From contig NZ_FOKV01000002.1 in NCBI RefSeq assembly GCF_900112105.1, positions 310,001 to 374,000 on the forward strand: 64,000 nt of DNA, read 5' to 3'. Positions 27,980-33,907 of the stretch are shown here, piece by piece; position 1 is the stretch's first letter; each line of letters begins with the position of its first letter. This stretch comes from Zunongwangia mangrovi (GTDB lineage: Bacteria > Bacteroidota > Bacteroidia > Flavobacteriales > Flavobacteriaceae). The position numbers and the translations under genes are program-made. The notes beneath the pieces are model-generated. The model was not told the origin of the DNA. It saw only the letters and a list, made by a program, of their open reading frames with translations, and did no database searches.

Positions 27980-30388
27980 ATGAAGCGAACAATCAATAAA
28001 GTTGCTGTTGTAGGTTCAGGGATTATGGGTAGCGGTATTGCCTGCCACTTCGCCAATATTGGCGTCGAGGTATTACTGCTCGATATCGTTCCGCGAGAAC
28101 TCAATGAAAAAGAACAAAAAAAGGGGCTTACTTTAGAAGATAAAGAAGTGCGTAATCGTATCGTTAACGATTCATTGCAAAATTCTTTAAAATCGAAGCC
28201 CTCTCCTATTTACCATAAAAATTTTGCCAAGCGCATAACCACCGGAAATTTAGAAGATGATATCGCTAAAGTTTCTGAAGCAGATTGGATCATTGAAGTG
28301 GTAGTAGAACGACTTGATATTAAGAAACAGGTTTTCGAAAAACTTGAAAAACATAGAAAACCGGAAACATTAATTACTTCGAATACTTCCGGGATTCCCA
28401 TTAAATTTATGAACGAAGGTAGAAGTGATGATTTCCAGAAACATTTCTGCGGAACGCACTTTTTCAATCCTCCACGATATTTACGTTTATTCGAAATTAT
28501 TCCGGGACCAGCTACTTCAGATGAAGTGTTGAATTTCCTGAATGACTACGGAAAAAAATTCCTGGGTAAAAAATCGGTTATCGCGAAAGATACGCCGGCT
28601 TTTATCGGAAACCGCGTTGGGATCTTCAGTATAATGAGTTTGTTCCATATGGTGAAAGATATGGATATGACAATTGAAGAAGTCGATAAACTTACCGGTC
28701 CGGTAATTGGTCGTCAAAAATCGGCTACTTTCCGTACCGTAGATGTGGTTGGTTTAGATACCTTGGTGCACGTTGCTAACGGTTTGTACGAAAACGTTCC
28801 CGATGATGAGGCTCACGAGCTTTTTAAACTTCCAGATTTTATCCAAACAATGATGGATAATAAATGGTTGGGAAGCAAAACCAATAATACCGGATTTTAT
28901 AAAAAAGTAAAAAAGGACGATGGTTCCAGCGAGATCAAATCTTTAGATCTTGATAAAATGGAATTCCGTGATCGTAAAAGCGCGAAATTCGGAGTTTTAG
29001 AACAAACCAAAACTATCGATAAACTTAGCGATCGTTATAAAGTGCTTATTAAAGATGAAGGTAAAGCCGGTAAATTTTATCGCAAAAACTTCTCAGCACT
29101 TTTCGCTTATGTGTCAAACAGAATTCCGGAAATCACCGATGAACTTTACAAGATCGACGATGCGATGCAAGCCGGTTTTGGATGGGAACACGGACCTTTT
29201 CAGGTTTGGGATGCCATTGGTGTAGAAAAAGGAATCGAAATGATGAAAGCTGAAGGTTACGAGCCAGCAGCTTGGGTTTCAGAAATGGTAGATGCCGCTA
29301 TCACTTCATTTTATTCAGTAAAAGAAGGAAATACGTATTATTATGAGATTCCGAAGAAAGAACACGTAAAAGTTCCAGGACAGGATTCTTATATCATTTT
29401 AGACAATATTCGCGAATCTAAGGCTGTATTCCAAAACAGCGGAGTTGTAGTTGAAGATTTGGGCGATGGTATATTGAATCTGGAATTCCGAAGTAAGATG
29501 AATTCGATTGGTGGTGATGTTCTCGACGGAATCAACAAAGCGATCGATCTTGCTGAAAAAGAATACCGCGGACTCGTAGTGTCCAACGACGGAAAAAACT
29601 TCTCTGTAGGCGCCAATATCGGGATGATCTTTATGATGGCGGTAGAGCAGGAATACGACGAGCTGAATATGGCGATCAAATATTTCCAGGATACAATGAT
29701 GCGTATGCGCTACTCCTCTATTCCAACGGTTGCTGCGCCGCATAATATGGCGCTTGGTGGTGGTTGCGAACTTTCACTTCACGCCGATAAGGTGGTGGCT
29801 CACGCTGAAACTTATATTGGTTTAGTTGAATTTGGCGTTGGAGTAATTCCCGGCGGCGGTGGTTCTAAAGAACTAACTTTAAGAGCAGCTGATACTTACC
29901 AAAAAGATGATGTAGAACTGAATCGTTTACGTGAAAATTTCCTAACGATAGGGATGGCAAAAGTTTCTACTTCTGCTTACGAGGCTTACGATACCAATAT
30001 TCTTCAAAAAGGAAAAGATATTGTAGTGGTGAATCGTGATAATCAATTAGCAATCGCCAAAAAACATGCAATGTTAATGGCAGATAATGGATACACAAAG
30101 CCTATTATGAGAAAAGACATTAAAGTTCTTGGAAAACAGGCTTTAGGTGCTTTTTACGTAGGAACCGACCAGATGAACGCCGGAAAATACATTAGCGATC
30201 ACGATAAGAAAATCGCTAATAAACTGGCTTACGTAATGGCAGGTGGAGATCTTTCTGAAGCGTCTTACGTTAGTGAGCAATACTTATTAGACCTGGAACG
30301 CGAAGCTTTCTTAAGCCTTTGCGGAGAACGAAAAACCTTAGAACGCCTTCAGCATATGTTACAGAAGGGGAAACCGCTTAGGAATTAA
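27980..30388 (+). CDS. fadN: 3-hydroxyacyl-CoA dehydrogenase / enoyl-CoA hydratase (FadN-type)
   Basis: A fused two-activity enzyme of beta-oxidation. I choose the ATG at 27980 (802 residues) over the upstream ATG at 27944, because the NAD-binding motif GSGIMGSG (12-19) then starts at the usual distance from the N-terminus. The dehydrogenase part occupies about residues 1-400, including FCGTHFFNPPRYLRLFEIIP with the catalytic His region. The hydratase part follows from about 480, with NFSVGANIGM and GGGCELSLHADKVVAH forming the oxyanion-hole blocks. The domain order, dehydrogenase first, is that of Bacillus FadN and the opposite of E. coli FadB/FadJ. It is part of the fadN-fadA-fadE operon. 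The 71-nt gap downstream holds a repeat. Confidence 0.9.
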   Translation: MKRTINKVAVVGSGIMGSGIACHFANIGVEVLLLDIVPRELNEKEQKKGLTLEDKEVRNRIVNDSLQNSLKSKPSPIYHKNFAKRITTGNLEDDIAKVSEADWIIEVVVERLDIKKQVFEKLEKHRKPETLITSNTSGIPIKFMNEGRSDDFQKHFCGTHFFNPPRYLRLFEIIPGPATSDEVLNFLNDYGKKFLGKKSVIAKDTPAFIGNRVGIFSIMSLFHMVKDMDMTIEEVDKLTGPVIGRQKSATFRTVDVVGLDTLVHVANGLYENVPDDEAHELFKLPDFIQTMMDNKWLGSKTNNTGFYKKVKKDDGSSEIKSLDLDKMEFRDRKSAKFGVLEQTKTIDKLSDRYKVLIKDEGKAGKFYRKNFSALFAYVSNRIPEITDELYKIDDAMQAGFGWEHGPFQVWDAIGVEKGIEMMKAEGYEPAAWVSEMVDAAITSFYSVKEGNTYYYEIPKKEHVKVPGQDSYIILDNIRESKAVFQNSGVVVEDLGDGILNLEFRSKMNSIGGDVLDGINKAIDLAEKEYRGLVVSNDGKNFSVGANIGMIFMMAVEQEYDELNMAIKYFQDTMMRMRYSSIPTVAAPHNMALGGGCELSLHADKVVAHAETYIGLVEFGVGVIPGGGGSKELTLRAADTYQKDDVELNRLRENFLTIGMAKVSTSAYEAYDTNILQKGKDIVVVNRDNQLAIAKKHAMLMADNGYTKPIMRKDIKVLGKQALGAFYVGTDQMNAGKYISDHDKKIANKLAYVMAGGDLSEASYVSEQYLLDLEREAFLSLCGERKTLERLQHMLQKGKPLRN

Positions 30389-30457
30389 AATGTTGAATGA
30401 TGAATGTTAAATTTTAAATTATTTGAAATTCAACATTCAAAATTTAAAATTCAAAAC
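30382..30457. repeat. Inverted-repeat unit between fadN and fadA
   Basis: The gap contains AATGTTGAAT (30389-30398) and its exact inverse ATTCAACATT (30428-30437). It also contains a 25-nt segment (30428-30452) that matches the reverse complement of 31655-31679, beside the S23 gene, at 22 of 25 positions by eye. It looks like a solo copy of the repeats that bracket the four-helix gene. Confidence 0.65.
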
Positions 30458-30459
30458 AA

Positions 30460-31650
30460 ATGAGTAAGACTGCATATATAGTAAAAGCATATAGAACCGC
30501 CGTAGGGAAAGCGCCTCGAGGTGTGTTCAGATTTAAAAGACCAGATGAACTGGCAGCGGAAACCATCGAATATATGATGGATAAACTTCCGGAATTCGAC
30601 AAAACTCGTATCGACGATGTAATCGTTGGAAATGCGATGCCTGAAGCTGAACAAGGATTAAACGTAGGGCGTTTGATTTCTTTAATGGGATTAAAAACCG
30701 AAGACGTACCGGGAATGACGGTGAATCGCTATTGCGCTTCAGGTTTGGAAACGATTGCGATCGCTTCAGCAAAAATCCAAAGTGGAATGGCCGATTGTAT
30801 TATCGCCGGTGGTGCCGAAAGTATGAGCTACATCCCGATGGGTGGTTATAAACCGGTGCCAGACTATAAATTAGCGAAAGAAGGTCACGAAGATTATTAC
30901 TGGGGAATGGGGTTAACTGCGGAAGCGGTTGCCAATCAGTATAAAGTCTCTCGTGAAGATCAAGATGAATTCGCTTACAATTCGCATCAAAAAGCGATAA
31001 AAGCACAGGCGGAAGATCGTTTTCAAGATCAAATCGTTCCGATCACAATTGACCAAACTTATGTGGATGCCGACGGAAAGAAGAAAACCAAAAGCTATAC
31101 GGTAAATAAAGATGAAGGTCCGCGTAAAGATACTTCGGAAGCAGTACTTAATAAACTGCGCCCTGTTTTTGCTGAAGGCGGAAGCGTAACTGCCGGAAAC
31201 TCTTCACAAATGAGTGATGGTGCTGCTTTTGTAATGGTAATGAGTGAAGAGATGGTAAAAGAACTAAATCTTGAACCCATTGCCAGAATGGTAAGTTACA
31301 CTGCAGTTGGTGTAGAACCAAGAATTATGGGAATTGGTCCTGTAAAAGCCATTCCAAATGCAATAAAACAAGCCGGACTAAAACAAGATGATATTTCATT
31401 GATCGAATTGAACGAAGCTTTTGCTTCACAATCGTTGGCCGTGATTCGCGAATTAGGATTAAATCAGGATCTGGTAAATGTAAACGGTGGCGCCATTTCA
31501 ATGGGACATCCACTAGGTTGTACAGGAGCAAAACTATCGGTTCAGATCTTTGATGAAATGCGCAAACGCAACCTAAACAATAAATACGCAATGGTAACAA
31601 TGTGCGTAGGAACCGGACAAGGTGCTGCGGGGGTTTATGAAGTATTTTAG
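30460..31650 (+). CDS. fadA: Acetyl-CoA acyltransferase (3-ketoacyl-CoA thiolase)
   Basis: The 396-residue thiolase carries the acyl-accepting cysteine C92 in [11 protein letters not shown], the histidine in [17 protein letters not shown] (about residue 349) and the proton-donating cysteine in [12 protein letters not shown] (about 380). It catalyses the last, thiolytic step of beta-oxidation in the cytoplasm. The position after the fadN-type gene and before an acyl-CoA dehydrogenase fits Bacillus fadNAE. The start at 30460 has the usual [19 protein letters not shown] beginning. Separation from fadN is 71 nt, carrying a repeat; co-transcription is still likely. Confidence 0.93.
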
Positions 31651-31654
31651 TTAT

Positions 31655-31679
31655 GAATTTTGAATGCTGAATGTTGAAT
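31655..31679. repeat. Left inverted repeat flanking the four-helix-bundle gene
   Basis: This 25-nt segment is a near-perfect inverse of 32065-32089: 22 of 25 positions match, with mismatches at three central positions. The pair bracket the S23/IVP-like gene 31696-32046. Confidence 0.7.
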
Positions 31680-31695
31680 TAGAAATGAGAGAACT

Positions 31696-32046
31696 TTGAA
31701 AACAGAAAATATAATTATCGATAAAACTTTCAATTTCTCTCTGAGTATTATTTCCCTATTCAAAAAATTACAGGAAAATAAAGAGTTCATTATTTCAAAA
31801 CAGCTCTTAAGATCAGCGACAAGTATTGGTGCCAATGTTGAAGAAGCCACGGCAGCTCAATCGAAAAGAGATTTTATAAATAAGATGTCTATTGCTTCAA
31901 AAGAAGCCAGAGAAACTAAATATTGGTTACGATTACTGAATGATTCTGAGCTCACAACTCTCGATGTTTTAGATGAAATAAAGGAAGTAAACCATATCAT
32001 CAATATCATTACAAAAATCATAATTACAGCAAAAAATAATGTTTAA
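31696..32046 (+). CDS. Four-helix bundle protein (23S rRNA intervening-sequence/S23 family)
   Basis: A 116-residue, all-helical protein with the family signature FNFSLSIISLFKKLQ, then LLRSATSIGANVEEATAAQS and FINKMSIASKEARETKYWL. These are the hallmark blocks of the S23/IVP family, homologous to the Avd accessory protein of diversity-generating retroelements. The start is TTG at 31696; the family N-terminus (MKxENII..DKTFNFS) fits this start and no in-frame ATG lies upstream. The gene interrupts a fatty-acid degradation operon, between fadA and fadE, and is bracketed by a 25-bp imperfect inverted repeat. This suggests an inserted cargo-type element rather than a metabolic gene. Role unknown; family members are thought to bind nucleic acid. 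Confidence 0.82.
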   Translation: MKTENIIIDKTFNFSLSIISLFKKLQENKEFIISKQLLRSATSIGANVEEATAAQSKRDFINKMSIASKEARETKYWLRLLNDSELTTLDVLDEIKEVNHIINIITKIIITAKNNV

Positions 32047-32064
32047 CAATACTGAATTATAAGC

Positions 32065-32089
32065 ATTCAACATTTATAATTCAAAATTC
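32065..32089. repeat. Right inverted repeat flanking the four-helix-bundle gene
   Basis: This 25-nt segment matches the reverse complement of 31655-31679 at 22 of 25 positions and lies 18 nt after the S23 stop codon. The next gene starts 12 nt later. Confidence 0.7.
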
Positions 32090-32101
32090 TAAATAAAAAA
32101 G

Positions 32102-33907
32102 ATGGAAGCTAAAACAGATAAAGAAATATTACGCGGTGGTCAATTCTTAGTAAAAGAAACCAACTGCGAAGACATTTTTACTCCTGAAGATTTTAACGAG
32201 GAGCAAAAGATGATGCGTGATTCTGTGCAGGAATTTGTAGATCGTGAGATCATTCCGCATAAAGAAAGATTCGAGAAAAAAGACTACGCGCTAACCGAAG
32301 AAATTATGCAAAAAGCCGGAGAACTTGGCTTTCTTGGTGTTGCTGTTCCAGAGGAATATGACGGACTAGGAATGGGATTTGTTTCCACAATGTTGGTTTG
32401 TGATTATATTTCTGGGGCTACCGGATCGATCGCAACCGCTTTTGGAGCGCATACCGGGATTGGTACAATGCCAATTACCCTTTACGGAACCGAAGAACAA
32501 AAGAAAAAATACGTTCCTAAGTTAGCCACCGGCGAATGGTTTGGTGCGTATTGTTTGACTGAACCGGGCGCAGGTAGTGACGCAAATTCAGGAAAAACCA
32601 AAGCCATACTTTCTGAAGATGGAAAACATTACAGCATTAGCGGACAAAAAATGTGGATCTCTAACGCCGGTTTTGCAAATGTATTCATCGTTTTTGCTCG
32701 TATTGAAGATGACAAGAACATCACCGGATTTATAGTAGAAAACGATAAAGAAAACGGAATTTCGTTCGGGGAAGAAGAAAAGAAATTAGGAATCCACTCC
32801 TCTTCTACTCGCCAGGTTTTCTTTAGCGAAACTAAAGTTCCGGTAGAAAATATGCTGGCTGGTCGTGGCGAAGGTTTCAAAATCGCGATGAATGCCTTAA
32901 ACGTCGGCCGTATCAAGTTAGCGGCTGCTTGTTTAGATGCACAACGTCGTGTAACAGCTAATGCAGTTCAGTATGCTAATGAAAGAGTTCAGTTTAAAAC
33001 GCCAATTGCACAATTTGGTGCGATTAAACAGAAATTAGCAGAAATGGCAACTTCAGCTTATGTTGGAGAGTCTGCTTCATACCGTGCAGCTAAAAATATT
33101 GAAGACAGAATTAATATTCGCTTAGAAAGTGGTAATTCACATTCTGAAGCCGAATTAAAAGGTGTTGAAGAATATGCGATAGAATGTTCTATTTTGAAAG
33201 TTGCCTGTTCAGAAGATATTCAAAATTGCTCTGATGAAGGAATTCAGGTTTTTGGCGGAATGGGATTCTCTGCCGATACGCCAATGGAAGCAGCGTGGAG
33301 AGACGCTCGTATTTCCAGAATTTACGAAGGAACCAACGAGATTAACCGAATGCTCTCTGTAGGGATGTTGGTGAAAAAAGCGATGAAAGGTCACGTAGAT
33401 CTTTTAGGACCTGCACAATCTGTAGCCAACGAGTTAACTAGTATTCCATCTTTCGATAAGCCGGATTATTCTGAATTGTTTGCTGAAGAAAAGGAAATGA
33501 TTAAAAAGCTGAAAAAAGTATTTTTGATGGTTGCCGGTAGCGCTGTTCAGAAATTCGGACCTCAACTGGAAGAGCATCAGCAATTATTATTAGCTGCTTC
33601 AGATATTCTAATCGAAGTTTATATGGCAGAATCGGCTATTTTAAGAACTGAAAAGAATGCGAAACGTTTCGGCGAAGATTCACAGAAAGAGCAGATCGCA
33701 ATGTCGCAACTTTACCTTTATAATGCCGTTGAAACAATTAACGCTAAAGCTAAAGAAGGAATAATTTCTTTCGCTGAAGGTGATGAATTAAGAATGATGT
33801 TAATGGGATTAAAGCGTTTTACGAAATACGACAACTTCCCGAATGTTGTAAAATTAAGAACCCAAATTGCCGATAAATTAATCGCTGAAAATAAGTATTG
33901 TTTTTAA
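32102..33907 (+). CDS. fadE: Acyl-CoA dehydrogenase (FadE-type, long form)
   Basis: The 601-residue flavoenzyme has an acyl-CoA dehydrogenase core: FAD- and substrate-binding blocks YCLTEPGAGSDA (about residue 151) and KMWISNAGFANVFIVFARIE (about 183), and the catalytic glutamate E409 in IYEGTNEINRM. About 150 extra helical residues follow at the C-terminus, as in the 590-600-residue FadE proteins of Bacillus. It oxidises acyl-CoA to trans-2-enoyl-CoA, passing electrons to an ETF. It is the third metabolic gene of the fadN-fadA-(S23)-fadE unit. A terminator follows that also serves the convergent gene. Confidence 0.92.
   Translation: MEAKTDKEILRGGQFLVKETNCEDIFTPEDFNEEQKMMRDSVQEFVDREIIPHKERFEKKDYALTEEIMQKAGELGFLGVAVPEEYDGLGMGFVSTMLVCDYISGATGSIATAFGAHTGIGTMPITLYGTEEQKKKYVPKLATGEWFGAYCLTEPGAGSDANSGKTKAILSEDGKHYSISGQKMWISNAGFANVFIVFARIEDDKNITGFIVENDKENGISFGEEEKKLGIHSSSTRQVFFSETKVPVENMLAGRGEGFKIAMNALNVGRIKLAAACLDAQRRVTANAVQYANERVQFKTPIAQFGAIKQKLAEMATSAYVGESASYRAAKNIEDRINIRLESGNSHSEAELKGVEEYAIECSILKVACSEDIQNCSDEGIQVFGGMGFSADTPMEAAWRDARISRIYEGTNEINRMLSVGMLVKKAMKGHVDLLGPAQSVANELTSIPSFDKPDYSELFAEEKEMIKKLKKVFLMVAGSAVQKFGPQLEEHQQLLLAASDILIEVYMAESAILRTEKNAKRFGEDSQKEQIAMSQLYLYNAVETINAKAKEGIISFAEGDELRMMLMGLKRFTKYDNFPNVVKLRTQIADKLIAENKYCF

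Follow-up and report, generated by a model that had tools for sequence, protein, structure and literature searches.

A small unit at positions 31645 to 32099 of the window analyzed here, a 64,000-nucleotide stretch of Zunongwangia mangrovi DNA (contig NZ_FOKV01000002.1, positions 310,001 to 374,000; all coordinates below are those of the window), consists of a single gene of the S23 family set within inverted arrays of a seven-base repeat, between two genes of a fad operon. This unit is probably an element of the intervening sequence (IVS) type known from 23S rRNA genes, residing in a protein operon and carrying about three to five heptads in each array. Repeat-bounded S23 units recur across phyla and are built like the S23-coding IVSs; empty sites, swaps, and gene-less forms of them exist. 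They are a new setting for, and a wider definition of, a known kind of element, the S23 intervening sequences.

The S23 gene (31696 to 32046, plus strand), recognized as an open reading frame (ORF) with PF05635 and TIGR02436 profile matches, encodes 116 amino acids from a TTG start. It separates two ORFs of the same strand, which we take to be fadA (acetyl-CoA acyltransferase-like, 30460 to 31650) and fadE (acyl-CoA dehydrogenase, 32102 to 33907), as a sequence-only reading of this DNA had stated, and the whole unit is read in the direction of the operon. The left arm (31645 to 31679, plus strand), an array of TGAATNN heptads (TGAATTT TGAATGC TGAATGT TGAAT) found by repeat search, period-7 scan, and dinucleotide shuffling, overlaps the fadA stop codon (31648 to 31650); the right arm (32065 to 32099), found by repeat search and RNA folding, has the same heptads inverted on the minus strand and ends 2 nt upstream of the fadE start codon. 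Together they form an extended inverted repeat of 35 nt that is 80% complementary in the repeat search, within which the segments 31655 to 31679 and 32065 to 32089, described earlier as inverted copies matching at 22 of 25 positions, again gave 22 of 25 on recounting. A strict scan assigns 26 nt to the left array and 19 nt to the right. The local inverted-repeat score of the two 100-nt flanks is 24, which none of 5,000 dinucleotide-preserving shuffles reached (best, 19). Folding the RNA of positions 31640 to 32105, a check proposed by the sequence-only reading, yields a structure closed on both arms (minimum free energy, -87.5; z, -2.34; 2 of 100 shuffles as stable). An Rfam scan of the unit returned two sub-threshold matches only, and membership in a known RNA family was rejected on that ground.

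All six PF05635 genes of the window's genome (G000; labels beginning with G and L denote our genomes and loci) have an inverted repeat beside them, 19 to 42 nt in length and different in sequence in each case. The score is at least 16 at four of the six genes and 14 at the other two, and a score of 16 is reached by 12 of the 392 genes called over 464 kb of this genome, the window S23 gene included. A wider survey comprised 204 units, 127 from the family Flavobacteriaceae and 77 from 80 genome-contig loci (L232 and L276 were too short, which left 78 scored loci, and L275 was later dropped for a broken frame). The family units are a subset leaning to genomes with many copies, and 37 of 38 matches in the genus were analyzed, a weak G004 fragment being omitted. 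A score of at least 16 was found at 103 of the 204 S23 genes and at 11 of 389 control genes, an array with a period of 7 or 8 nt on either side at 144 versus 29, arrays on both sides at 54 versus 1, and an array or an inverted repeat at 162 versus 37. Fisher tests give P values of 2e-44 for inverted repeats and 1e-58 for arrays, which are too small because relatives among the S23 genes do not count as independent cases and the controls all come from the window's genome. Across the 408 arms, the best period was 7 in 157 and 8 in 40, and 6 of 408 shuffled arms passed the threshold (periods 5 to 11); the 158 above-threshold period-7 arrays have a median length of 34 nt, about five heptads, under a threshold that favors long arrays. 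In one locus (L055, genome G001), a 14-bp unit of two heptads is repeated about 25 times upstream of the S23 gene, which is evidence of array expansion.

S23 genes are present in at least 45 of the 60 genera sampled of the family, with up to 16 copies per genome among the matches listed. Of the genome-contig loci, 43 of 78 score at least 16, versus 5.0% of mispaired flanks, and the scoring loci include records labeled Kaiserbacteria, Gottesmanbacteria, Gracilibacteria, Verrucomicrobiia, Kiritimatiellaeota, Geothrix, and Lambdaproteobacteria, labels that may be wrong. With the longest open frame within 1 kb taken to be the neighbor, and with the 10 units without 500-nt flanks omitted, the S23 gene is codirectional with both neighbors in 175 of 194 units, with one neighbor in 13 and 5, and with neither in none (1 uncalled); the corresponding numbers for ordinary genes of the window's genome are 184, 61 and 63, and 37 (n = 345). 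Chance pairing of AT-rich intergenic sequence could draw on the AT-rich flanks and on the arrays that lie near 29 of 389 ordinary genes, but the shuffles and the Fisher tests, overstated as their P values are, stand against it, and it is refuted by the recurrence of the units across phyla, which leaves it a negligible probability.

The anatomy of the unit is that of the S23-coding IVSs. In Coxiella, the IVS is 428 nt long, contains an S23 ORF, is closed by a 28-bp terminal stem, and carries tandem GACAGAT heptads ahead of the S23 start codon; RNase III cuts it mid-stem at the first repeat, and rRNA IVSs are excised by this enzyme without ligation (PMC4990558, available portion). The window unit agrees with the 23S rRNA IVSs of Coxiella and Leptospira in having one S23 ORF, a length of about 430 nt, complementary ends around the ORF, heptads before the S23 start, and sense orientation, and it shares with them a sporadic presence among relatives, found here in both the genus and the family. 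It differs in lying between protein genes of an operon, where excision would have to take place from mRNA, and because it lies between fadA and fadE instead of within an rRNA gene, it is filed as IVS-type and not as a 23S IVS. A further difference is that the Coxiella S23 gene is reported, in the available portion of the same paper, to be decaying and probably not expressed (PMC4990558), whereas the window S23 gene is under purifying selection. The rRNA setting also appears within our survey: the S23 gene L339 of an Azospirillum replicon lies inside a 23S rRNA gene (LSU_rRNA_bacteria over positions 2 to 2757 of the locus) and is bounded by inverted heptads, with a repeat score of 26 and period 7 in both arms. 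Since the rRNA elements and the operon units have one architecture, we infer from these sequences that they are of a common kind. The sequence-only reading had missed both the IVS anatomy and its recurrence at six of six S23 genes of the genome.

Junctions in relatives are found filled, empty, and swapped. Close relatives of fadE exist in all six genomes of the genus and in 59 of the 60 genomes sampled from the family. Within the genus, the fadA-fadE junction carries the window unit in G000, G001, and G003 (nearest), other S23 genes with other heptads in G005 and G002, and GC-rich palindromes in G004; the fadB-fadA junction holds a bare heptad hairpin in G000 and G001, an S23 unit in G003, G002, and G005, and GC-rich palindromes in G004. 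The gene that we take to be fadB (3-hydroxyacyl-CoA dehydrogenase/enoyl-CoA hydratase-like) is an ORF at 27980 to 30388 on the plus strand. Across 29 genera, the fadA-fadE junction is a bare spacer of 14 to 39 nt in 12, an S23 unit in 8, and something else in 9, the last including three heptad-like hairpins (G021, G027, and G042) and two palindrome pairs of a different kind. An S23 gene lies at fadB-fadA or fadA-fadE in at least 22 of 59 genera, with fadB-fadA mostly judged by distance from fadE, and S23 genes occur at fadB-fadA in a Pedobacter record and at fadA-fadE in Flammeovirgaceae and Pontibacter records.

Six further junctions, including those between genes that we take to be a hydrolase gene and menC and between putative ruvC and hemW, were compared within the genus. 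At hydrolase-menC, the site is empty in G002 and G005, where the stop codon TAA is directly followed by ATG. The hydrolase gene lies upstream of menC at 21 of the 30 menC loci of the family sample; in 10 of these 21, menC starts within 5 nt of the stop codon (once overlapping it by a base), 2 have an S23 unit, 1 has a decayed unit with both arms, and 8 have other spacers, and the 94-nt spacer of G026 reads as a further hairpin. The junction is filled in Aequorivita (L223), and in filled junctions the first repeat starts either at the stop codon or immediately behind it, with an apparent TTG start codon for menC. The ruvC-hemW junction has an S23 unit in two genomes, a bare hairpin in three, and GC-rich palindromes in one. 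The empty sites support the earlier claim of a small unit made up of an S23 gene and its own inverted repeats. Because relatives have empty sites and the repeats occur elsewhere in the genome, the contrary picture, an S23 gene fixed at this place in all relatives with repeats found nowhere else, does not hold. A target duplication, which the sequence-only reading had suggested looking for, was not visible at hydrolase-menC, the sole junction with a tight empty site, the other junctions not being alignable; this hallmark of DNA transposons and miniature inverted-repeat transposable elements (MITEs) was thus judged, and not found, at one site only.

Other exchanges were observed at these and similar places. 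GC-rich palindrome pairs of the CCCCTAACCCC...GGGGAGG type occur at L078 (the fad operon of G004), L207, L217, and L218, in junctions occupied by S23 units in sister species, and are possibly another exchangeable junction element. The J5 junction has a methyltransferase-like gene in three species (L219 to L221), an S23 unit in two, and neither in the window's genome. At one chromosomal locus shared by five genomes (L007, L050, L052, L053, and L055), conserved flanks enclose one or the other of two S23 types, which are about 59% identical and differ in their repeats. Further dispersed intergenic palindromes, of the GTCGAGCGCAGTCGAG and TTGTATCGAGAAGT types, were seen at L177 and L194 (G062 and G063) and at several G000 loci, and the GTCGAGCGCAGTCGAG type also occupies a fadA-fadE junction.

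Among close relatives, the type of repeat tends to follow the S23 gene. For S23 gene pairs with no shared neighbor detected (19,361 pairs), strongly similar flanks make up 1 to 3% below 45% protein identity, 14.5% at 55 to 60%, 19.8% at 60 to 70%, and 7 of 14 pairs above 70%. For the 130 different-locus pairs that are at least 60% identical, flank similarity is 23.3, compared with 18.75 (standard deviation, 0.42) after permutation, and 0 of 2,000 permutations reached the observed value; "different locus" here means no homologous neighbor in a flank of up to 1.5 kb, and short flanks can hide one. One S23 clade, with flank scores of 29 to 43 to L223, is found at junctions that we take to be hydrolase-menC, panB-serA, panB-rluA, and lspA-rluA in different genera. 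The two arms of a unit score 15.8 on average against each other. When arms are crossed between units with a shared neighbor, the scores are 14.3 (at least 60% identity), 10.7 (45 to 60%, 600 pairs), and 10.1 (below 45%), and without a shared neighbor they are 11.8, 9.5, and 9.2 in the same classes. In most units, own arms thus far outscore crossed arms, which indicates that arms change yet stay matched.

A single transposon end shared by all units was rejected, as the arms differ from unit to unit, and the inverted repeat was not borne out as a conventional transposon end, given arms that vary by unit and are mostly tandem heptads, and no target duplication. In MITEs, and in repetitive extragenic palindromes (REPs) and bacterial interspersed mosaic elements (BIMEs) with their REP-associated tyrosine transposases (RAYTs), gene-bearing and gene-less palindromic intergenic forms share a repeat, and the S23 units are alike in having both forms with a common repeat; they are unlike these systems in having no tyrosine or DDE transposase and a repeat that differs between units. 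Mobilization of a MITE-like DNA element in trans, through a transposase specific for its terminal inverted repeats, would account for those repeats, for the gene-less forms, and for own arms matching far better than the arms of relatives, and the negative wobble test described below fits pairing at the DNA level. The units, however, share no end sequence, show no target duplication at hydrolase-menC, are strongly oriented in the sense direction, and contain no transposase, and we regard this explanation as improbable.

Gene-less forms can be related to particular S23 units. In the window, a heptad hairpin at 30394 to 30453 in the fadB-fadA junction, identified by period-7 scan and without assigned strand, has arms that match those of the S23 unit at 31645 to 32099. 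Among the 204 units, its top matches are L074, L009, and L075 (scores 45, 43, and 41; next, 28), which are the window unit and its two orthologues. Five of seven gene-less hairpins tested rank one set of S23 units at the top, in a comparison that covered the surveyed units, a part of the S23 genes of those genomes. The ruvC-hemW hairpins of G001 and G002 match best the S23 units of another locus (L082, L067, L010, L081, and L080), the same set takes four of the five best places for the G004 ruvC-hemW hairpin, and fadB-fadA S23 units rank first for the G027 hairpin.

The search of the genome for the repeat, suggested by the sequence-only reading, succeeded: the TGAAT heptad pattern has 72 matches, the gene-less palindrome of the next junction among them, versus 7 for the reversed pattern used as a control (overlapping matches within one array counted singly), and a search with the unit returned one full copy and four short arm matches. 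The heptads are tandem, intergenic, and dispersed, as in the short tandemly repeated repetitive (STRR) sequences, and S23 arms show a peak at lag 7. Of the 17 solo TGAAT arrays for which an upstream gene was called, 14 have the same sense as that gene, and the right arms of the fadB-fadA hairpin and of the fadA-fadE unit account for two of the other three. Across the 17 solo-array loci (about 320 nt each), none of the inverted repeats reported includes the TGAAT array itself. The idea of solo arrays as a sign of a matching S23 gene was not supported, as they are present in all six genomes of the genus.

The S23 protein matches PF05635 (E, 1.6e-24; 86.6 bits against a cutoff of 33.8) and TIGR02436 (E, 1.2e-28; 99.5 bits against a cutoff of 24), and its AlphaFold2 model (predicted local distance difference test score, 92.9) is a four-helix bundle, for which Foldseek gives 2rld as the best PDB match (template modeling [TM] score, 0.77 to 0.88), with 2gsc at 0.68 to 0.73. 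Seven residues, Q36, R39, S43, I44, N47, E50, and E73, are invariant across an alignment of 32 S23 sequences, out of 36 tried (L247, L267, L280, and L301 omitted). The label "Avd-like" given earlier holds weakly for the fold, chains of Avd and its diversity-generating retroelement (DGR) complex (4dwl, 8ub7, and 8ub8) giving TM scores of 0.55 to 0.78 at Foldseek E values above 0.1, and fails for the sequence family, which is S23/IVP, with no Avd family among the profile matches. Plant pectin methylesterase inhibitor bundles fit the model as well as the Avd chains do. Retro-mobility, with a reverse transcriptase copying the stem-loop RNA and S23 assisting it in the manner of Avd, would agree with this fold similarity, the sense orientation, and the absence of a target duplication, but the unrelated bundles fit equally and no Avd family matches. 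A reverse transcriptase in the same genome, a mark of DGRs, was also rejected, RVT_1 having matched nothing in G000 or G005 (6 and 7 S23 genes, respectively), and neither a template repeat nor a variable repeat is known here; this route is therefore very improbable. Carriage by phages was likewise rejected, the S23 query L050 having no match in 50,697 phage records at 1e-5.

The ratio of nonsynonymous to synonymous substitution rates (dN/dS) of the window S23 gene is 0.04 and 0.12 against its two orthologues at the same site and 0.03 to 0.24 across 14 orthologous S23 pairs, several of which have dS values above 1.5 (some saturated); decayed copies also exist. This purifying selection shows that the units are not mere debris, and it suggests that S23 serves a purpose beyond parasitism. 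The protein TRAP binds tandem triplets, and S23 could in a comparable way be an operon-resident regulator whose rings attach to heptads in the transcript that encodes them and to the solo arrays, coupling or uncoupling both host genes. The low dN/dS values, the sense orientation in operons, the presence near fadE in at least 22 of 59 genera, and the solo arrays in the sense of their upstream genes would fit such a role, as would the median array of about five heptads set against the pentameric S23 of structure 2gsc (PMC4990558, available portion). The patchy presence of the unit, its replacement at the same site by unrelated S23 genes or quite different palindromes, the rRNA setting, and the hairpins without a gene speak against it, and we consider it rather unlikely.

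Outside the family, 17 plasmid S23 loci were examined (15 cyanobacterial, one of Gemmatirosa, and one of Azospirillum), of which 16 (14 of the 15 cyanobacterial) have arrays of 7- or 8-nt repeats on one or both sides, e.g., AGTAGGG, GGGTGTA, GGTGACA, and AACAGGG; 8 of 17 have an inverted-repeat score of at least 16, versus 25 of 272 mispaired flanks. We take these arrays to resemble the STRR heptads of cyanobacteria. Some of the cyanobacterial plasmid S23 genes lie in CRISPR-Cas clusters, between cas6 and cas4 (L324 and L328) and between cas10 and cmr3 (L330), with 7- or 8-nt arrays. Heptanucleotide repeats were reported long ago in cyanobacteria, and G-rich intergenic heptads are described in Xanthomonas and Nostoc, with 70 and 75 inverted pairs in two Xanthomonas genomes (PMC4692102, available portion); xcc0516, the S23 protein solved as 2gsc, comes from a species with published GGGAATC heptads; long tandem repeats of Nostoc (PMC2408588, in part) and TAACTGA heptads of Beggiatoaceae (PMC4679880, in part) are also on record. 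S23 is mentioned 0 times in the available text of either heptad report (PMC4692102 and PMC4679880), and no title or abstract linking S23 genes in protein operons to heptads was found in a search that left preprints and most subscription journals outside its reach. The published arrays are likewise intergenic tandem heptads, of the kind that flanks S23 genes on the cyanobacterial plasmids of our survey; they are unlike the S23 units in that most carry no gene.

Several observations weigh against the view of the unit as a mobile IVS-type element. Nearly half of the surveyed units (101 of 204) lack an inverted repeat scoring at least 16, and 42 have neither an array nor a repeat. The relation between protein and flank holds for close pairs only, the global correlation being not significant (r, 0.043; 145 of 2,000 permutations; Mantel test). 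None of the 14 different-locus pairs with at least 70% identity lies within one genome, so a recent jump was not seen. A wobble test for selection at the RNA level was negative, with 181 mismatches counting as G-U pairs on the sense strand and 241 on the antisense strand, and pairing at the DNA level or copying between arms is therefore possible. The hairpins of G042 and G021 have no single S23 set standing out, G042 has its heptad hairpin with no S23 gene among the matches listed, and TGAAT heptads are plentiful in all six genomes of the genus, even those without this S23 gene. On plasmids, at least 3 of 17 units have same-direction arrays that do not pair (L324, L333, and L338), L323 has no array within 120 nt, and three of the cyanobacterial units, outside the orientation count above, run antisense to each of their annotated neighbors. 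Nostoc heptads are rarely inverted pairs and are absent from the plasmids of that strain, according to the available portion of PMC4692102. Purifying selection on S23 also speaks against a purely selfish element.

For the IVS-type element, a mechanism can be proposed by analogy with rRNA. In the operon transcript, the arms would pair into a stem with the S23 message in its loop, and RNase III would cut the unit out as it does in rRNA, thus separating the fadA and fadE messages; such excision from mRNA is likely. Also likely is the predicted recognition of the heptads by an S23 ring, which, being a pentamer in the solved relative, may bind about one heptad per subunit. The unit would spread rarely, whole or as a gene-less hairpin, leaving no target duplication and with no enzyme for the move encoded within it, and the S23 protein, whose function is given as not known in the available portion of PMC4990558, may be retained for the benefit of the copy that carries it or of the host operon.

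The shared S23 architecture in rRNA genes, operons, and plasmids suggests a neglected class of intervening sequences in many operons and rRNA genes of distant bacteria. To our knowledge, the origin of heptanucleotide repeats is still open. More tentatively, as a possibility that falls short of probable, S23 genes may be the parents of bacterial heptanucleotide repeats: a single, ancient class of elements made of S23 and heptads would spread through the operon junctions of many phyla, with the IVSs as copies that landed in rRNA and orphan heptads, such as those of cyanobacterial STRR sequences, of Flavobacteriia, and perhaps of Xanthomonas, as gene-less offspring, each family being recognized by its own S23 ring. 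The common architecture joins the question of S23 function to that of the origin of the heptads and makes both testable, and S23 units may underlie the old puzzle of the seven-base repeats of bacteria.
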